From Gallionella sp. (GTDB lineage Bacteria; Pseudomonadota; Gammaproteobacteria; Burkholderiales; Gallionellaceae), in contig JAQTYN010000017.1 in assembly GCA_028688275.1 (NCBI GenBank), positions 1 to 59,081 on the forward strand: 59,081 nt of DNA, read 5' to 3'. Position numbers and translations under genes: made by a program. Every line of letters starts with the position of its first letter. Position 1 is the stretch's first letter. Of the stretch, positions 3,491 through 17,260 are shown one piece after another. The notes below the pieces were generated by a model that was not told where the DNA came from, did no database searches, and saw nothing but the letters and a program-made list of their open reading frames with translations.

Positions 3491-4005
3491 TTAAGCTTCC
3501 TGGCAGCGGCTCGACTAAGCCAACGGTTGGCATCACGCTCTTCACAACCCATAGCCGTCAAAATTACTTTAGCTTGGTCGATCCAGTTATGACCTTCAAG
3601 GACTGGCTCAGAGGTTTGCTCGAGGGCAAACCGAGGTTGGATCCCGACGCAGCTTTCAGGAAGTGGAATATCTGGCGGCCAAAACATCATCAAAGATCTA
3701 GGCGTCGTTTTATTCATGCTGATAGCCACTCGAATAGTAGAGGCTTTGGCTTTAGTTAACCGTTGGACAACTTCAAACCCGTAGAGAGGAAAGGCTAGAC
3801 GGTGGCTATCAAGCCGAAGTCGAATCACCGATTTTGTGACAATTAATCCCCGGCCTCGGCAAACCATGGGCTCAGGAAACATAGTTCGCCATAGTACTTG
3901 AAGGTCGCTGATCGTAATGTAGTCGCTTGGCGGCGAAAACAGCATCTCGTCAAAATGAGCAAGGCGCGCGCGGGCCTCGCGGGGAAGGTACGTTGACTCT
4001 AACAT
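3487..4005 (-). CDS. Hypothetical protein (172 aa) coupled to the primase-helicase
   Basis: ATG 4005 is preceded by GGGAG and by the promoter at 4041-4069. The stop overlaps the primase-helicase start as ATGA. The protein is basic at its C terminus (RAAARKLK) and shows no domain I can name. The operon position implies an early role in or near replication, but this is inference only. Confidence 0.75.
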   Translation of the reverse strand: MLESTYLPREARARLAHFDEMLFSPPSDYITISDLQVLWRTMFPEPMVCRGRGLIVTKSVIRLRLDSHRLAFPLYGFEVVQRLTKAKASTIRVAISMNKTTPRSLMMFWPPDIPLPESCVGIQPRFALEQTSEPVLEGHNWIDQAKVILTAMGCEERDANRWLSRAAARKLK

Positions 4006-8502: not shown

Positions 8503-8884
8503 AACCAAGCCTGATGACCTTGTCACCTCGCCCCTGGGTGATCAAGCCAGCCCGGCGACCCTCGGCCGTCCTAAGCCGATGTCGCTGGGCGAGGCTCGAC
8601 GAAACTTCGCCATTCCGCGCTACCTCTTGTCCGACGGCAAGATCACCCCGCTTGAGGTGATGGTTGAGGTCATGCGTCTGCACTACGCCGCTCAGGATTT
8701 TGAGAAGGCGGTCGCGGTGGCCGAGAAGGCCGCGCCTTATATGCATCCCAAGCTGGCGGCGATCCAGACCAGCGTCGCGTTCAATGCGGATGAAGCTGAC
8801 ATTCACGCGCCCTCGCTCGTGATCAAGTTTACCAACGGCGTGCAACCTCCTCCCGTGATTGATCAGGCCGATGGCGAGAACTAA
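8486..8884 (+). CDS. Terminase small subunit (putative)
   Basis: ATG 8486 lies within the end of the NusG-like gene with GGCAGG upstream. The middle (ITPLEVMVEVMRLHYAAQDFEKAVAVAEKAAPYMHPKL) matches the conserved part of small-terminase-like proteins that precede PBSX-type large terminases in proteobacterial phages. It would recognise the packaging site and recruit the large subunit. Position directly before the large subunit, overlapping it, supports the call. Confidence 0.75.
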   Translation: MSKQLKTKPDDLVTSPLGDQASPATLGRPKPMSLGEARRNFAIPRYLLSDGKITPLEVMVEVMRLHYAAQDFEKAVAVAEKAAPYMHPKLAAIQTSVAFNADEADIHAPSLVIKFTNGVQPPPVIDQADGEN

Positions 8885-10106
8885 TGTCGTCGACCTTCCG
8901 GCGGCGTATCAATTTCTCTTTGAGGACGCCCGCTACAAGGTCGGTCACTCCGGCCGCGGGGCCGCGAAGTCTTGGAGCTACGCCTTCGCCCTGATCGCGA
9001 TGGCCCACGTCAAGCCGCTTAAGATCCTGTGCACCCGCCAGTACCAGACGAGCATCCAGGACTCGGTTCACGCCATCTTGAAGAACCGCATCTCGGACCT
9101 TAAGCTGGACAAGTGGTTCACGATCCAGGAACGGACGATCTACGGTCACAACGGCAGCCAGTTCATCTTCAAGGGGCTGAGCCACAACGTCCAAGAGATC
9201 AAGTCCTTGGAAGGGGTGGATATCTGCTGGGTGGAGGAGGCTCAGCTGGTCTCCGAGCAGAGCTGGCGGATTCTGATGCCAACCATTCGCAAGAAGGGGT
9301 CTCAGGTCTGGATCTCGCTCAACCCAGAGAAGATCGACGACCCGACATGTCAGCTGTTCATTGAGCATCCGCCGACGCGATGCATCACAAAGAAGCTTAG
9401 CTGGCGAGATAATCCGTGGTTCAACGAGGAGTTGGACTATGAGCGTCAGACCATGCAGGAGCGAGACTACGATGCGTACCTTCATGTATGGGAAGGCGAG
9501 TATATCAAAAACACCAAGGCTGCCATCTTTGATGGCAAGGTCGAGGTCAGCAACTTTGAAGCCAAGTACGGCACCCAATTCTACTACGGGGTCGATTGGG
9601 GCTTCTCGCGAGATCCGACGGTCATGCTTCGGTGCTACGTCGAAGATGAGACACTGTTTGTGGACTACGAGGCGGTGGGTCGACAGACGGACAACGATGA
9701 GTTGCCTCAGCTCTTCGACAACGTCCCCGGCTCTCGGTTCGGGCAGATCCGAGCGGATAGCGCCCGGCCCGAGACGATCAGCCACCTTGTAAGGCGCGGC
9801 TACAATATCAAAGGAGCCAAGAAGTGGCAGGGCTCCGTCGAGGACGGGATCGCCCACCTCCGCGGGTATCGAAAGATCGTGGTCCATGAGCGGTGCCATA
9901 ACCTCCGGCAGGAGGCGAGGCTCTACAGCTACAAGGTCGATGAGAAGACCGGCGACATTTTAACGACCATCAAGGATGCTCACAACCATAGCTGGGACGC
10001 CTTGCGCTACGCGCTGGACGACCGGATCAAGGGGAAGAGCGACCTTGGGCTTTGGAAGCGACTAGGGTCCCCCTCGATGATGGCGGCTCGGGGCAAGCGA
10101 GTTTGA
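8871..10106 (+). CDS. terL: Terminase large subunit, PBSX-like
   Basis: ATP-driven DNA packaging motor with nuclease. Walker A SGRGAAKS (27-34), Walker B VDICWVEEA (116-124), then the RNase H-like nuclease with acidic residues in YYGVDWGFSRDP (Asp242), IRADSARPE (Asp296) and HNHSWDALRY (Asp376). The length, 411 residues, is normal. A TTG at 8859 is an alternative start four codons earlier; ATG 8871 is preferred. It overlaps the small subunit by 14 bases. Confidence 0.93.
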   Translation: MARTNVVDLPAAYQFLFEDARYKVGHSGRGAAKSWSYAFALIAMAHVKPLKILCTRQYQTSIQDSVHAILKNRISDLKLDKWFTIQERTIYGHNGSQFIFKGLSHNVQEIKSLEGVDICWVEEAQLVSEQSWRILMPTIRKKGSQVWISLNPEKIDDPTCQLFIEHPPTRCITKKLSWRDNPWFNEELDYERQTMQERDYDAYLHVWEGEYIKNTKAAIFDGKVEVSNFEAKYGTQFYYGVDWGFSRDPTVMLRCYVEDETLFVDYEAVGRQTDNDELPQLFDNVPGSRFGQIRADSARPETISHLVRRGYNIKGAKKWQGSVEDGIAHLRGYRKIVVHERCHNLRQEARLYSYKVDEKTGDILTTIKDAHNHSWDALRYALDDRIKGKSDLGLWKRLGSPSMMAARGKRV

Positions 10107-10116
10107 AGGTAGGGTG

Positions 10117-11886
10117 ATGAAGACTAACGACTCGTTCATAAACTTTCTCTCGCGCCTGGGTTACGGCGCTGACAACCAGTTCTCCCAGGGCGGGTACTCG
10201 TTCACCCCGATCAGTCGCCTGCGGACGCAGATGGACTTCGCGTACCGGTCCTCGTGGCTGGTGCGACGGGCAGTGGACACTGTGGCCAACGATATGACCC
10301 GAGAGGGCATCGAGTTTAAGGCCACGATCCCGCCCGAGAAGATCGACAAGTTGATGCGTCGGATCACGTATCTCGGCCTCATGCAGAGCCTCGGGTCCGT
10401 GATTAAGTGGGCGAGACTCTACGGCGGCGCGATCGGCGTCATCATGATCAAAGACCAGGATCCCAGCACGCCCCTTCGGCTGGAGACCATCAAGAAAGGT
10501 CAGTTCCTCGGGGTGGCGCCGATCGATCGCTGGATGGTGACGCCGTCGCTTCAAGACCTGGTGGATGAGCCCGGCCCCGAGATCGGGGTGCCGAAGTTTA
10601 ACACCATCATCGGCTCCTCACCGGTCATGCCCACCCAGCGGGTGCATCACTCGCGGTGCATTCGTGTGTTGGGGGACTCCCTGCCGTACTGGCAAGCGCA
10701 GGCCGAGAACTACTGGGGCTTGTCGGTCCTGGAGCCCATGTGGGATCGGTTGCTGGCGTATGACTCCACCACCCTCGGGGCTGCGCAGCTGGTCTTCAAG
10801 GCGCATCTTCGGACGATGAAAATCGAAGGCTTTCGTAATATCTTAGCCGAGGGCGGCGAGATCTTGGAAGCTGTGCTTCAGAACATCCAGATGATCCGGC
10901 TCAATCAGTCCAATGAGGGCATGAGCGTCATCGACACGGCGGACTCGCTGGACGCCACGGCCTATGCCTTTGGCGGCTTGGCGGATGTGATGCATCAGAT
11001 GTCGGAGCAGATCTCCGGCGCGTTGGCGATCCCGTTGGTGAAGCTATTTGGTCAGTCGCCATCGGGGTTGAACTCCAACGGTGATAACGACATTCGAAAC
11101 TACTACGACCATGTTCGCGGCGAGCAGGAAGCTAAGCTTCGGTTCGGCATGATGAAGCTGGTCTCGGTGCTTTATATCTCTGAGTTCGGTGAGATGCCGA
11201 ACGATGATTTTGACTATGATTTTGTCCCGCTCTGGCAGCTGCAACCAGCCGAGAAGGCGACGGTGGCCTCGACCCGGACCACCACGGTCATCGCAGCTTA
11301 TGACGCTGGGTTGGTGACGAAGGCTACGGCGCTGCGTGAGCTGCATCAGATGAGTGAAGAGACCGCGGTCTGGTCGAACATCTCGGTGGACGAGGTAAAG
11401 GCAGCTGAGGATGAAGCGCCGGATGGCCGTGAGGCCCTCGAGGATCCAGCCTTGGAGCTGCCGGCTCGAAAGGCCGGGCAGCCGGTCAAGGACCAGCGGT
11501 TAATGCCGATGCTGGAGTTTCAAGGGCTGCCGATCGTGATCGAGACTTTTAAGGGCCACGCTCGAAGCGGCGGTTTCTTAGGGGCTGACTACGGCTACTT
11601 CCAGCGGACCGTCGGCGAGGACGGGGATCAGGTCGATGTGTTTGTAGGGCCTGACCTTGAGTCCCCCAAGGTCTTCAAGCTGGATCAGGTCCATTTGGAC
11701 GGGAGCTTGGATGAGCATAAGATCCTGGTGGGCTTTCAAACTTTGGGTGAGGCCCTGGCAGCTTACGAAGCGTCGTATGGGCCGGACGCGACGGTAATGG
11801 CCGGAGCTGTCGCGCTGATGACGGTGCCGGGCCTTAAGGCCTGGTTGAAGGAACGGACGCTCCCGACGTTGCGCGCTGTAAAATGA
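10117..11886 (+). CDS. Portal protein (DUF1073-like) with a C-terminal pyrophosphatase-like domain
   Basis: Residues up to about 430 look like the DUF1073 portal family (AYRSSWLVRRAVDTVANDM, LYGGAIGVIMI, PLVKLFGQSPSGLNS), forming the ring through which DNA enters the capsid. The last 120 residues are an added domain: GLPIVIETFKGHARSGG, then GEDGDQVDVFVGPD and LDEHKILVGFQT. This pattern is known in phage polyproteins as an inorganic-pyrophosphatase-like domain. ATG 10117 with AAGG upstream is chosen over GTG 10114. Its stop overlaps the next start. Confidence 0.88.
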   Translation: MKTNDSFINFLSRLGYGADNQFSQGGYSFTPISRLRTQMDFAYRSSWLVRRAVDTVANDMTREGIEFKATIPPEKIDKLMRRITYLGLMQSLGSVIKWARLYGGAIGVIMIKDQDPSTPLRLETIKKGQFLGVAPIDRWMVTPSLQDLVDEPGPEIGVPKFNTIIGSSPVMPTQRVHHSRCIRVLGDSLPYWQAQAENYWGLSVLEPMWDRLLAYDSTTLGAAQLVFKAHLRTMKIEGFRNILAEGGEILEAVLQNIQMIRLNQSNEGMSVIDTADSLDATAYAFGGLADVMHQMSEQISGALAIPLVKLFGQSPSGLNSNGDNDIRNYYDHVRGEQEAKLRFGMMKLVSVLYISEFGEMPNDDFDYDFVPLWQLQPAEKATVASTRTTTVIAAYDAGLVTKATALRELHQMSEETAVWSNISVDEVKAAEDEAPDGREALEDPALELPARKAGQPVKDQRLMPMLEFQGLPIVIETFKGHARSGGFLGADYGYFQRTVGEDGDQVDVFVGPDLESPKVFKLDQVHLDGSLDEHKILVGFQTLGEALAAYEASYGPDATVMAGAVALMTVPGLKAWLKERTLPTLRAVK

Positions 11887-13442
11887 ATAGGTCGGAGCTT
11901 CGCGCTAGCAAGGAGCAGGCCTTTCGCCGGGCTCGGCGGGCGGAGTCGACGTTTACGGCTCAGATGAGAGGGATTGGTCGCCAGATCGGCGTGATCATCC
12001 AATCCTTCGGGGCCCCGTCGATGGAGACGGAGCATCAGGTCCGAGGGGCGCTGAGTCGATATCAGCGGATGCTGGAGCCCTACGCTCACGCGATTGCGGG
12101 GCGGTTGGTGACGGAGCTGGACCGCCGAGACCGAGCAGCGTGGCGGATCTACGGGCAGCAGCTAAGCGCTGGGTTGAAGCGAGAGATTCAGACAGCGCCG
12201 CTTAAGGAGACGCTGCGGAAGCTGCAGGCTGAACGGGTCGCTGTGATTTTGAGCCTGCCGGAGACCGAAGCGGCCCGGGTGCAGCGGGAAGCGATGGCCA
12301 ACTTCACTGAGAGTAAGCGGGCCGGCTCGCTGAAGCGCGAGATCATGGGACAGACCGGCCTTAGTGAGCGGCACGCGATGCTGATTGCTCGGACGGAGAC
12401 AAGTGCGGCCTCGAGTATGTTGACGCAGGCTCGGTCGCAGTTGATTGGCAGCGAGGGCTATATCTGGCGGACGGCCGAAGACGAGGGGGTTCGGTTGACG
12501 CACTCCTTGATGGAAGGCCGGTTTGTCCGATGGGATCAACCGCCAAAGCTTCAAGGGATGGTCGGCCACGCCGGGTGCTTTCCGAATTGTTTTTTAGGTT
12601 CTACACCAGTAGATTTAAGTTACGGCTTAAAACATTTGCTTCGAGTACCGTATCAGGGTCGTGGTATAGTTTTGAAGGTTGGTGGCGCGACCATTTCGCT
12701 TACACCGAATCACCCCATGTGGACAACTCATGGCTGGATAGCCGCTCAGGATCTTAAGGTAGGCGACTATATCGTCCAGACAGTGCGGAAGAACATCTCG
12801 GCTATACAATTGGATAAACCAAAGCGTCTCCCCACGTTCGATGAGCTTTTTGCTTCTAAGTGTTTTGAAAAACGAGTCGGGAGCTCCAGCCTTGAGTTTA
12901 ACTTCTACGGCGATGTGCCCAACGGTCAAGTCGATCAAATATTCCCCACTCATGCGTTGTTGGATTGGCTGAAGGCCGGCCAATTTAAGGTTGCTGACGA
13001 TCTCTCGTTCGCCAAAACCAACGGCGGGATTTTGACTATCGCAGCTTTTGGACGACAGCATCAAGTTAGCGTTTCGAACATCTCTAGCAGCGCGCAAGAT
13101 TTTTTGCCGACCGCTAAGCCCGATATTGGCCATTCGCTGACGGGTAGCTTCGCCGCGGTCGCGGGGCTGGATTCCGCTGTCAAGCAAGATTTGACGTACT
13201 ACAACTCGGCCAAGGCCATGCTTAATGGCCAAAGCTTGCTCGCTGGTGCCGGCGATATAATCGGAGATGAGTTGTGTACGCTTCTTCCCGTCGAAGGCGT
13301 TAGCCATCGTTATTTTGCTCAAACCCACGTCTACACCCTCGAAACAATGACAGGGTATTATACAGTGGCAGAAAACGGTTGTACAACTAAAAATTGCCGA
13401 TGCTATCCGGAGCCGGTGATTCCGACCAAGTTTTTGAGGTGA
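11883..13442 (+). CDS. Head morphogenesis protein (SPP1 gp7/Mu F-like) interrupted by an intein
   Basis: The N-terminal extein (1-235) contains the family's RHAMLIARTETSAASS and YIWRTAEDEGVRLTHSLMEG motifs. The family ends with a Cys-rich signature close to P-N-C-R-C-Y-P/A-E-P; here an intein splits it between FPN (235) and CRCYPEPV (505-512). Spliced, the protein would be about 250 residues, usual for the family, which assists early head assembly and may travel in the capsid. The start overlaps the portal stop (ATGA). Residues 236-504 are described separately. Confidence 0.9.
   Translation: MNRSELRASKEQAFRRARRAESTFTAQMRGIGRQIGVIIQSFGAPSMETEHQVRGALSRYQRMLEPYAHAIAGRLVTELDRRDRAAWRIYGQQLSAGLKREIQTAPLKETLRKLQAERVAVILSLPETEAARVQREAMANFTESKRAGSLKREIMGQTGLSERHAMLIARTETSAASSMLTQARSQLIGSEGYIWRTAEDEGVRLTHSLMEGRFVRWDQPPKLQGMVGHAGCFPNCFLGSTPVDLSYGLKHLLRVPYQGRGIVLKVGGATISLTPNHPMWTTHGWIAAQDLKVGDYIVQTVRKNISAIQLDKPKRLPTFDELFASKCFEKRVGSSSLEFNFYGDVPNGQVDQIFPTHALLDWLKAGQFKVADDLSFAKTNGGILTIAAFGRQHQVSVSNISSSAQDFLPTAKPDIGHSLTGSFAAVAGLDSAVKQDLTYYNSAKAMLNGQSLLAGAGDIIGDELCTLLPVEGVSHRYFAQTHVYTLETMTGYYTVAENGCTTKNCRCYPEPVIPTKFLR
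12588..13394 (+). mobile_element. Intein (269 aa) in the head morphogenesis gene
   Basis: Residue 236 is Cys1 in CFLGSTPVDL (block A). Block B is ATISLTPNHPMWTTHG with Thr-x-x-His. Block F/G is THVYTLETMTGYYTVAENG ending TTKN before the +1 Cys. Protein splicing would rejoin PN and CRC. The penultimate residue is Lys, not the usual His, a change that functional inteins can carry. The frame is open throughout with no sense-strand LAGLIDADG or HNH motif in the 180 residues between blocks B and F. The opposite strand carries an endonuclease-like gene instead. Confidence 0.9.
12627..13328 (-). CDS. Antisense HTH-Vsr-like homing endonuclease nested in the intein
   Basis: 233 residues lying entirely inside the intein on the other strand, codon on codon. 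Residues 18-50 form a helix-turn-helix (LISDYIAGTSEQALAIKHG, then RVVVRQILLDSG) followed by a basic linker (GEATRQRMA). Residues 105-145 have a PD-(D/E)XK layout: FGEREIVSNL (Glu107/Glu109), YLIDLTVG (Asp133), AVEVK (Glu142, Lys144), then helix and LWFIQLYSRD. HTH plus Vsr-like proteins of this layout are known to me as phage and intein-associated homing endonucleases. GTG 13328 has GAGGG seven bases upstream; ATG 13307 is an alternative. An accidental open frame is possible in this register, but the domain match makes a real gene more likely. Confidence 0.7.
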   Translation of the reverse strand: MGLSKITMANAFDGKKRTQLISDYIAGTSEQALAIKHGLGRVVVRQILLDSGIQPRDRGEATRQRMANIGLSGRQKILRAARDVRNANLMLSSKSCDSQNPAVGFGEREIVSNLKLAGLQPIQQRMSGEYLIDLTVGHIAVEVKLKAGAPDSFFKTLRSKKLIERGETLWFIQLYSRDVLPHCLDDIVAYLKILSGYPAMSCPHGVIRCKRNGRATNLQNYTTTLIRYSKQMF

Positions 13443-15341: not shown

Positions 15342-15366
15342 TTCTTTTTACGCGGAGGTTTCAACG

Positions 15367-16353
15367 ATGGCTAAACGTATCTACACCCGAGACGCGCTGA
15401 CATTCGATCGCTATACGATCGACAGCACCGGCGCGTTCTTGGTGGGTGAGCTCGAGCGGCTCGACCCCACCATGCATGAGCCCTTGGTCGCCGTGACCTG
15501 GGGCCGCGATATCGATCTGCGTGAAGACGTCACGATCGCGGACGAAGTCTCGTCCTTCACCAACTCCAGCTTTGCGGCGCCTGGTGCGCTGTCGGCCGCC
15601 GGCAAGTCGTGGATCGGCAAGAACTCCAACGCTATCGTCGGCGTGCAGCTCGACCTGAGCAAGACCGCCTACCCCTTGACCCTTTGGGGCAAGGAGTTGG
15701 AGTTCACGATTCCTGAGCTCGAGTCGGCCATGCGTCTCGGTCGCCCCATCGATGCCCAGAAGCTGGATGCGCTGCGTCTGAGCCATCAGATGGACATTGA
15801 CGAGATGGTCTACACCGGGGATACGGACCTCGGGTACTTCGGTCTTGCCAATTCCCCGCTGGTCACCACGACCAACGCGGCAGCCGTCGGGACCGGAAGC
15901 GGGACCCAATGGACCACCAAGACCCCGCAGCAGATCCTCAACGACGTCAATACCCTGCTGACCGATGTCTGGACCTCGTCCGGCTGGGCGCTGATGCCGT
16001 CGAAGCTGCTGCTTCCGCCGGTGAACTACAGCTACCTGGTTTCGACAATCGTATCGACCGCGGGCAACATGTCGATCCTGCGCTTCCTGCGCGAGAATAA
16101 CCTGCTGACCACCTCGACCGGCCGTCAGCTGGACATTCAACCGGTCAAATGGCTGACCGGCGCTGGTGTGGGTGGGACCAACCGCATGGTGGCTTACACC
16201 CAGGACAAGGACCGGGTGCGGTATCCGATGACCCCGCTGCAGCGCACCCCGATCGAGTTCAAGTCGATCTACCAGATCACCACCTACTTCTGCCGCCTCG
16301 GCGTGGTCGAGTGGGTCTACCCGGAAACGGGCGGCTATATGGATGGAATATAA
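15367..16353 (+). CDS. Major capsid protein (DUF2184-like)
   Basis: ATG 15367 with CGGAGG upstream gives 328 residues. Segments such as LGKELEFTIPELESAMRLGRP, ALMPSKLLLPPVNYSYL and KDRVRYPMTPLQRTPIEFKSIYQ fit my memory of the DUF2184 capsid family, HK97 fold. It would form the icosahedral shell. A longer frame continues upstream of 15367 but overlaps the previous gene and lacks a good site. A homing-type HNH gene lies directly downstream. Confidence 0.88.
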   Translation: MAKRIYTRDALTFDRYTIDSTGAFLVGELERLDPTMHEPLVAVTWGRDIDLREDVTIADEVSSFTNSSFAAPGALSAAGKSWIGKNSNAIVGVQLDLSKTAYPLTLWGKELEFTIPELESAMRLGRPIDAQKLDALRLSHQMDIDEMVYTGDTDLGYFGLANSPLVTTTNAAAVGTGSGTQWTTKTPQQILNDVNTLLTDVWTSSGWALMPSKLLLPPVNYSYLVSTIVSTAGNMSILRFLRENNLLTTSTGRQLDIQPVKWLTGAGVGGTNRMVAYTQDKDRVRYPMTPLQRTPIEFKSIYQITTYFCRLGVVEWVYPETGGYMDGI

Positions 16354-16402
16354 ATTTAACTTACGGGCTAATGTATACAAAGATTTCTAAATAGTCTACA
16401 GT

Positions 16403-16429: not shown

Positions 16430-17260
16430 ATGCATAGCCTTCAAGCTAGTTCAGAAAAAATAGCTTACCTAAAGACGCTTCTTGAATACGAGCCGGAAAC
16501 TGGCATCTTTCGGTGGAAGGTCGAAACTAATTGCCACGGTGGAAAGATTCGCGTCGGTGATGTGGCGGGAACAAAGGGTGATGATCAAGGGAGATACGCC
16601 AAGATCGGCATCGATGGCCGGCCATACCGAGCCCATATCATAGCCTATTGGTTTATGACGGGGGAGTCAGTACCTGAGAATATGGACATAGACCATACAG
16701 ACCGAGACAAGCGGAATAATCGGTGGCACAATCTTCGGCTCGTGGACAGGAGCATAAACAACCACAACTCTGGACTTCACCAGAATAACAGGAGCGGCGT
16801 CAAAGGTGTCTCATGGAATTCGTCGCGTGGTGTTTGGTTTGCGGTGATGTCAGTTGGTGGCAAGCGAGTTCTTGGGAAAAATTTTCCGACGTTTGAAGAA
16901 GCCACGAAAGCCAGGTTGGATGCTGAGGAAAAATATCTAGGCGTTAGATCTTTCGCGCCGGCGGCCCCGAACGAATATGACAGGCCGGTAGCTGTGAAAA
17001 CTACTAGACCGTGGTCCGATCCAGACCTTCGATCTGAACAGTCGGCCAGACTAAAAGCATTTTTAGCAACGCCAGAGGGTAAAGTTGCTAGACAGAGACA
17101 AGCTAAAGAGGTTAACAATAGGCCGGGTGCCCGCGAAAAGATGTCGGCCATTTTAAGCAACACGATTTGGATTACGAACGGTAGCTCGAATACCCGAGTT
17201 CCAAAAACTAAAGTCTTGCCAGACGGTTGGCGTCTTGGGCGGACAAAGAAAGGGGACTAA
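16430..17260 (+). CDS. Free-standing HNH homing endonuclease with AP2 domain
   Basis: 276 residues. The HNH_3 core is at about 85-120 (DIDHTDRDKRNNRWHNLR), with intact His and Asn. An AP2-like DNA-binding domain follows at 123-172 (GVKGVSWNSSRGVWFAV). The C terminus has WITNG and PDGW, a motif I know from phage HNH proteins, next to charged helices. Such enzymes cut intron- or intein-less relatives and spread by repair. The gene is inserted between the capsid gene and the next head gene, looks more AT-rich than its neighbours, and is behind its own hairpin. Confidence 0.88.
   Translation: MHSLQASSEKIAYLKTLLEYEPETGIFRWKVETNCHGGKIRVGDVAGTKGDDQGRYAKIGIDGRPYRAHIIAYWFMTGESVPENMDIDHTDRDKRNNRWHNLRLVDRSINNHNSGLHQNNRSGVKGVSWNSSRGVWFAVMSVGGKRVLGKNFPTFEEATKARLDAEEKYLGVRSFAPAAPNEYDRPVAVKTTRPWSDPDLRSEQSARLKAFLATPEGKVARQRQAKEVNNRPGAREKMSAILSNTIWITNGSSNTRVPKTKVLPDGWRLGRTKKGD

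Follow-up and report, generated by a model that had tools for sequence, protein, structure and literature searches.

Inteins are known to carry their endonucleases in their own reading frame, and the question raised by the locus described here is whether one of them has its endonuclease gene on the complementary strand instead. The locus lies in a 59,081-nucleotide stretch of Gallionella sp. DNA (hereafter the window: positions 1–59081 of contig C8, from a 3.16 Mb assembly) that holds a phage structural module with terminase, portal, MuF-type head, DUF2213, cement and major capsid genes. The head gene, located between the portal gene and the DUF2213 and capsid genes, is the open reading frame (ORF) 11883–13442, which matches a head morphogenesis PHROG (6.8e-48). 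An earlier reading of the letters alone, called here the original prediction, had proposed that this gene contains an intein whose opposite strand encodes, codon on codon, a homing endonuclease. We consider it very probable that a predicted self-splicing intein is indeed overlapped in this way by the gene of a helix-turn-helix (HTH) plus PD-(D/E)XK/Vsr-like protein, which would act as its homing endonuclease. Feature coordinates are gathered in Table 1.

A predicted intein on one strand, an open frame on the other

All the splicing motifs (Cys1, block B TPNHP, block F HVYTLE, and Asn269 followed by Cys) were found in ORF 11883–13442, in a single open frame as had been proposed. The Cys1 codon occupies 12588–12590, TPNHP 12702–12716, block F reads THVYTLE with His247 at 13326–13328, and the Asn269 codon at 13392–13394 is followed by CRC; the positions of the first and last codons thus make the intein bounds, 12588–13394, exact (residues 236–504 of the head protein). 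C1, G24, T39, N41, H42 and N269 are invariant among 21 aligned inteins. The Pfam family Intein_splicing matches the whole ORF with an E-value of 1.3e-3 and the intein alone with 3.8e-4, both below the Pfam cut-off. In the structure model, a HINT fold resembling solved mini-inteins is confidently predicted for residues 1–60 and 231–269, and inteins head the Foldseek matches of this model (lowest E-value 2.1e-3, so that 0.001 is not reached). From motifs and model, we describe 12588–13394 as a predicted self-splicing intein within the head gene. Profile searches with the sense protein returned head proteins and intein parts only, with no nuclease family.

The antisense frame runs from GTG at 13328 to TAA at 12627 and has the same codon boundaries as the sense frame (register 0), again in agreement with the original prediction. 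One has to keep in mind that such a frame may stay open by chance: over 2036 codons of the flanking genes, the register-0 antisense frame is interrupted by 17 stops, a rate at which 233 open codons have P ~0.14. Long antisense ORFs also lie opposite the terminase gene (8829–9899, minus strand, 356 aa) and the capsid gene (15361–16380, minus strand, 339 aa). The length of the open frame in the window was, thus, discarded as evidence.

Similarity is no safer a guide. With tblastn, the antisense protein matched 41 of 50,697 phage records, 40 of them listed, with 23.6–30.7% identity, and in the 11 phage regions that were fetched both frames are open in register 0. Two negative controls behaved alike: the antisense frame of the terminase gene matched 697 records and that of the capsid gene 38, the best at about 110 bits, because a register-0 antisense frame mirrors the sense gene. 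tblastn matches alone were, therefore, rejected as proof of an antisense gene, and these mirror matches call for caution in antisense gene claims generally. The original prediction was right in giving no weight to length. Given this mirror effect, we looked in the relatives for evidence that breaks the mirror.

Which strand is conserved

We collected 91 related loci, 11 from phage records and 80 from IMG/VR (L012–L091, the best 80 of 147). The register-0 sense frame is open through the match in all 91 and the antisense frame in 90. The 92 places (L001–L091 and the window) were grouped by k-mer clustering into 69 representatives, namely 68 loci and the window. In an all-against-all BLASTP comparison of the same bases read on either strand, these gave 85.8 bits for the antisense reading vs. 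46.6 for the sense reading; of 2308 pairs, 2274 scored higher in the antisense reading and 32 in the sense reading. In the N-extein of 64 representatives, sense was better in 130/130 pairs. As this first set had been found through the antisense frame, the comparison was repeated on a second set, collected by way of the sense intein (the best 80 of at least 465, with six contigs shared by name with the first set). Eight look-alikes were omitted, leaving 72 of the 80 loci, 70 after filters, and the antisense reading was again the better one in 2299 of 2306 pairs (sense in 7). From block B to block F, or over a fixed stretch in loci whose block F went unrecognised, 80/80 sense-found loci are free of antisense stops, and the antisense active-site pattern is present in 75/80. 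Both sets, thus, bear out the expectation that the antisense frame is kept in homologous inteins while the sense linker changes.

The preference is not uniform along the gene. When codons are aligned along the sense protein, the sense reading is favoured in extein and splicing blocks (3.14 vs. 1.38 for sense vs. antisense in the TPNHP bin, 2.49 vs. 0.53 in the HVYNLQ bin), whereas most linker bins favour antisense (for example 0.24 vs. 1.67 and 0.22 vs. 1.53), with the bin of the linker motif FHGD as an exception (1.62 vs. 1.26). The more variable codon position moves accordingly, from sense position 3 in extein and blocks to sense position 1 in the linker. Among three Gordonia phages, changes in the upstream extein fall on sense positions 3:1 in ratios of 35:3, 55:2 and 47:3, and those in the antisense ORF on sense positions 1:3 in ratios of 51:37, 58:47 and 48:36; residue changes in this ORF number 53/40, 67/48 and 52/36 (sense/antisense). 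A Klebsiella pair concurs, with few changes (upstream, positions 3:1, 52:5; ORF, positions 1:3, 10:6). The 45 pairs formed by ten Guernseyvirinae inteins (ten intein-plus phages of 58 or more) have position 1/position 3 change ratios of 0.33 in the N-extein, 0.72 in blocks A–B, 2.15 in the linker, 0.36 in blocks F–G and 0.19 in the C-extein; the corresponding antisense/sense residue-change ratios are 2.93, 1.35, 0.48, 2.55 and 4.93. At the extein rate, 277 antisense stops would be expected in 13,337 linker codons and the representatives have none, a count that the selection of loci by antisense match favours.

These substitution patterns show that purifying selection preserves the antisense protein over most of the linker and, at the splicing blocks and exteins, the sense protein. 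Selection on both strands had been predicted and is found, but in divided form, with joint constraint only at the FHGD spot. That the antisense frame is kept beyond chance is confirmed by comparison with the relatives, and not by length in the window.

A spot coded on both strands

The antisense active-site pattern was found in 64 of the 69 representatives. The codons of its strand are nearly fixed (Ala GCC in 63/64, Val GTG in 56/59, Glu GAA in 58/64), a usage far from that of the remaining codons in these frames (for GTG, P 3e-33), and this choice preserves F-H-G-D in the sense frame. Val and Ile alternate on the antisense side while the sense Asp is kept in 60/64, so the sense constraint acts on the protein. 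By its codon usage, the FHGD spot is held by both strands and conserved beyond antisense need.

Likely control signals within blocks F and G

Read on the opposite strand, the His codon of block F becomes the antisense start codon, and the N-L-Q/E codons after it become the Shine-Dalgarno sequence (often GGAGGT). Since any His codon gives ATG or GTG in reverse complement, it is the choice of codon that counts as evidence. Block F was recognised by its pattern in 73 of the 92 places, and in its Leu form in 46 of the 69 representatives. In these 46, the Leu codon is CTC in 40, vs. 325 of 1358 extein Leu (Fisher P 1.4e-18), and the His codon is CAT, mirroring ATG, in 38, vs. 82 of 262 (P 7e-11). 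In the Aggregatibacter copy, a database protein from another gene caller (P0002) starts at the Met predicted by this rule.

For the promoter, we used the 69 representatives and 45 of the 80 sense-found loci, 90 loci remaining after filters. In 17/90, at least 10 of the 12 consensus bases occur, where 4.8 loci would be expected after synonymous recoding (binomial P 5e-6); the perfect form, TTGACA-N17/18-TATAAT, occurs in 8/90, where 0.09 would be expected. These eight perfect promoters (L015, L020, L036, L041, L067, L071, L166 and L181) are oriented with the antisense gene and lie in coding sequence close to the end of the intein. The P values for the control signals are optimistic because the loci are related. 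A TCA codon for the penultimate Ser was ruled out as source of the −35 box (3 of 18 penultimate Ser vs. 240 of 1714 extein Ser). In the window itself, chance alone would give 0.9 sites as good as the promoter match in the region. Over the family, the control signals of the antisense gene likely lie within the codons of splicing blocks F–G.

A homologue that stands alone

In Acinetobacter phages IME285 and BUCT629, a homologue of the antisense protein is annotated as a free-standing gene of 297 codons (L098, 455–1348; L099, 2501–3394). It is convergent with the head gene, with a 7-base overlap, and this head gene is intein-less, its CKCR uninterrupted. An identical protein (P1068) is known by database listing alone, and a fourth free-standing case (L106) is 97% alike; P0026–P0032 were not counted, as scans with P0027 and P0031 found no DNA. 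The mirror frame of the free-standing homologue has 11 stops in 264 codons. TTA or CTA make up 9 of its 19 Leu codons and TCA 3 of its 20 Ser codons, vs. 0/1015 Leu and 0/843 Ser in embedded frames, where these codons are absent because the sense frame must stay open. The Acinetobacter Obolenskvirus homologues (AYP68850.1, QZI85355.1) belong to the same family and lie on the same strand relative to the MuF head gene, but outside any intein and next to an intein-less head gene. As a guess, a free-standing endonuclease opposite a head gene that it may have targeted was later nested in an intein in the same orientation.

What the antisense protein is

Taken alone, the antisense protein of the window gave no named nuclease in Pfam, NCBIfam, PHROG or PDB, and its HTH_58 match (E 9.5e-4) is below cut-off. 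Its relatives match MTES_1575 and DUF559, which we take to be PD-(D/E)XK/Vsr-like families; the profile search, thus, succeeds for the family and fails for the single protein. The structure model has a confident nuclease fold with the alpha-beta-beta-beta-alpha-beta core and resembles, by structure search, Vsr and the homing endonuclease I-Bth0305I. Matches of relatives and model together support the HTH plus Vsr/PD-(D/E)XK identity first proposed, and structure prediction of both proteins sets this nuclease against an intein-like splicing fold with a disordered linker.

The 60-row alignment (A3) holds 47 of 58 listed loci, two genome-scan loci, ten database proteins and the window protein, L001–L011 being excluded. 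E107 and E142 are invariant in 60/60 rows; Q124, Y130 and D133 are likewise, mostly in pattern-fetched rows, and since the fetch pattern contained Q124, Y130, N131 and D133, the invariance of these residues is partly built in. In ten rows outside the pattern fetch (A1), E107, Y130 and D133 are invariant and Q124 and E142 nearly so. E109 is Glu in 31/60 rows. Many members of the PD-(D/E)XK superfamily deviate at the Lys of the ExK motif, and so does this family: residue 144 is K in 3/60 rows, T in 16, H in 15 and F in 9, so that a Lys two residues past the last acid is no general trait. All the catalytic residues originally named are, thus, present in the window, and E107, D133 and E142 hold family-wide, while Lys144 is no family feature. 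In the comparison with the EDxHD type, the fold is similar to that of I-Bth0305I and no His is found among the invariant columns. In PADLOC, the single match was that of one relative (P0009) to "homing endonuclease", a weak one (E 0.0041).

Mobility of the intein

The head gene of Jerseyvirus sam matched 349 records, of which 58 cover at least 80%. The match is broken into two pieces, over a span short by about 0.8 kb, in 40 of the 60 rows that were listed by spread; in phage E15, a Jerseyvirus empty allele (L113), the empty site is exactly HPN/CR. In 45/45 Guernseyvirinae pairs, the 20 single-coded codons at the end of the intein have less third-position change than the C-extein, although in one pair the N-extein falls below the intein end (0.16 vs. 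0.20). Sam and dunkel are identical at codon positions 1 and 3 of the linker and differ at 51% of the third positions of the N-extein. That the intein has spread recently is indicated both by alleles without it and by near-identical copies in head genes that have diverged; on these alignments the insertion site is conserved among the relatives and the intein horizontally transferred.

Seven unusual hosts were scanned, with matches to dCMP deaminase (L011), head maturation protease (L087) and NUDIX plus portal (L078), and four portal–head fusions. In L034, the portal part (sense residues ~167–525) matches an anaerobic ribonucleotide reductase PHROG; it is perhaps a second intein in the same gene.

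Proposed cycle and competing explanations

We propose that the antisense gene would be transcribed from a promoter inside the codons of the last intein residues and translated from the Shine-Dalgarno sequence and start codon that mirror block F, signals of its own that could let it be timed independently of the head gene. Its product would cut the intein-less head gene, and repair would copy the intein in. The sense linker, which is stop-free and keeps FHGD, would be carried as a loop and removed with the intein by splicing. The locus is, thus, probably a mobile intein with a reversed, separately expressed endonuclease gene.

If only the sense intein were real, the antisense frame would be the codon reflection of a conserved sense protein, as the terminase and capsid controls, with their own tblastn matches of up to ~110 bits, and the P of ~0.14 for the open frame might suggest. 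This we hold very improbable, as the linker is better conserved in its antisense reading, opposite to the extein, the free-standing homologue is maintained without a mirror frame (11 mirror stops) and the nuclease model is confident. Scarcely credible is an endonuclease in the sense frame, as in ordinary inteins, with the antisense similarity incidental: strong conservation of FHGD would fit it, but the family matches of the sense protein are head proteins and intein parts without any nuclease family, its residues 129–228 are predicted to be disordered, and linker residues change twice as often in the sense as in the antisense reading.

A real antisense gene might also serve another role, for instance as a DNA-binding regulator or as a nuclease for repair or phage defence that the intein carries along. 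HTH families are indeed the commonest Pfam matches (HTH_7 in 41/60 at E ≤ 0.1), and NCBIfam gives a Cbp1-type HTH in 41/60, transposases and an anti-phage protein, vs. DUF559 in 8/60 and Vsr in 1/60. We judge such a role improbable, since the nuclease core is conserved with a fold matching Vsr and I-Bth0305I, all the copies examined have either a larger gene open in register 0 on the other strand or an intein-less head gene as neighbour, near relatives differ in having or lacking the intein, whose transfer is recent, and the sole, weak PADLOC match names a homing endonuclease. That the window copy itself is a decayed homing endonuclease, open by chance, is unlikely but to be taken seriously; it overlaps with the explanation that we favour, which concerns the family. 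The copy is shorter than many relatives, lacks the first HTH, starts with GTG and has a promoter no better than chance. A probable case of decay exists in the family: L057 has an antisense stop just after locus base 3534 while its sense frame is open. It is otherwise like L053, which is open on both strands, over the part that was compared, and we take it for a decayed endonuclease copy. It is the one antisense stop met among the homologues with an intact sense frame, the other 90 of 91 loci being open, so the original expectation of none holds with this exception. Against decay in the window stand 233 stop-free codons, intact E107, Q124, Y130, D133 and E142, a confident nuclease model and a similarly short relative (L007).

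Beyond the window, we think with good confidence that these loci form a large, ancient class of mobile inteins with a complete endonuclease gene on the complementary strand, whose promoter, Shine-Dalgarno sequence and start lie in blocks F–G, whose last strand lies over TPNHP and whose active site lies over FHGD.

Comparison with known systems and significance

E. coli Vsr is a mismatch-repair enzyme without an HTH like the modelled one; its structure (1cw0) shows 13% identity with the antisense protein over the aligned part. I-Bth0305I and the "fractured gene" endonucleases of Dassa et al. (2009) are said to be free-standing or to lie between split-intein halves. The present family differs from I-Bth0305I in keeping neither K nor H at the last catalytic position.

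In-frame endonuclease inteins, such as VMA, likewise have an endonuclease between two splicing parts and intein-less alleles (PMC8966425, PMC6801210). In VMA-type inteins, the endonuclease is part of the sense polypeptide, whereas here the complementary strand carries it as a gene apart, probably with a promoter, Shine-Dalgarno sequence and start of its own. Another likeness is the nuclear group I intron Didymium L2066, whose homing endonuclease gene lies opposite the strand of the splicing element, is expressed, and yields an enzyme that cuts the insertion site (PMC9548176). That element is a self-splicing RNA in ribosomal DNA, with a His-Cys box gene in the peripheral P9.2 and no overlapping protein frame (PMC9548176). 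The host here is a protein-level intein in an ORF, overlapped codon on codon, and not a group I intron. The titles, abstracts and passages covered (PMC9548176, PMC10448857, PMC1508164, PMC1635734, PMC8966425, PMC6801210 and PMC3229294, with few subscription papers) contain no intein with an antisense endonuclease.

Annotation largely passes over these genes: the antisense coding sequence is annotated, in part or whole and as a hypothetical protein, in 3 of 23 annotated intein-bearing regions (sam, PK2 and PK1), and in Snoke the intein is annotated and the antisense gene is not. Two genes of one selfish element on opposite strands would change how such elements are found, and bear on the true nature of some inteins without an obvious endonuclease. 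If confirmed, the class would rank among the most extensive examples in nature of one DNA maintaining two unrelated folded proteins, one on each strand, with endonuclease expression timed apart from, and uncoupled from, the structural head gene. It would also add a new set of candidate site-specific nucleases, and a densely sampled natural system in which to measure how base pairs shared by two proteins evolve.

Features and other genes of the window

Table 1. Features of the head gene, its predicted intein and the antisense gene (positions in the window; aa, amino acids; nt, nucleotides; pLDDT, predicted local distance difference test).
Feature	Positions	Strand	Basis or remark
MuF-type phage head morphogenesis gene, extein host of the intein	11883–13442	+	Pfam Phage_Mu_F, E 8.6e-7
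Predicted intein, 269 residues, Cys1 to Asn269, next residue Cys	12588–13394	+	Intein_splicing, E 3.8e-4, below cut-off
Antisense gene, predicted HTH + PD-(D/E)XK/Vsr-like homing endonuclease, 233 aa, GTG start, TAA stop	12627–13328	−	
Intein block B, TPNHP; reverse complement GVIRC, last predicted strand (residues 205–209) of the antisense nuclease	12702–12716	+	Sequence; model strand 205–209
Predicted nuclease domain, antisense residues 101–209	12702–13028	−	
Codons of nuclease residues	E107 13010–13008; Q124 12959–12957; D133 12932–12930; E142 12905–12903	−	
Dual-coded spot: sense F-Y-G-D (family FHGD), antisense active-site strand V/I-A-V-E	12903–12914	both	
Sense reading of the linker, intein residues 129–228, predicted disordered	12972–13271	+	pLDDT <50
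Predicted helix-turn-helix, antisense residues 14–50	13179–13289	−	Model helices 14–25, 30–37, 41–50
Block F core H-V-Y-T-L-E; His codon mirrors the antisense start, Leu CTC mirrors GAG of the Shine-Dalgarno	13326–13343	+	
Shine-Dalgarno-like GAGGG	13336–13340	−	7 nt 5' of GTG
Sigma-70-like promoter TGTACA-17-TATAAT	13357–13385	−	28 nt 5' of GTG

blastn of the window head gene against phages gave no match, and the relatives analysed here, therefore, include no close relative of its own intein. A scan found three loci in the genome of the window and, among 398 genomes of the phylum, two with a match, that of the window and G219. Upstream, the portal protein gene (10114–11886, plus strand) encodes a C-terminal domain that is inorganic-pyrophosphatase-like. 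Directly 3' of the major capsid gene, 16430–17260 (plus strand) encodes an HNH_3 plus AP2 protein, perhaps a second, free-standing homing endonuclease of the same phage.
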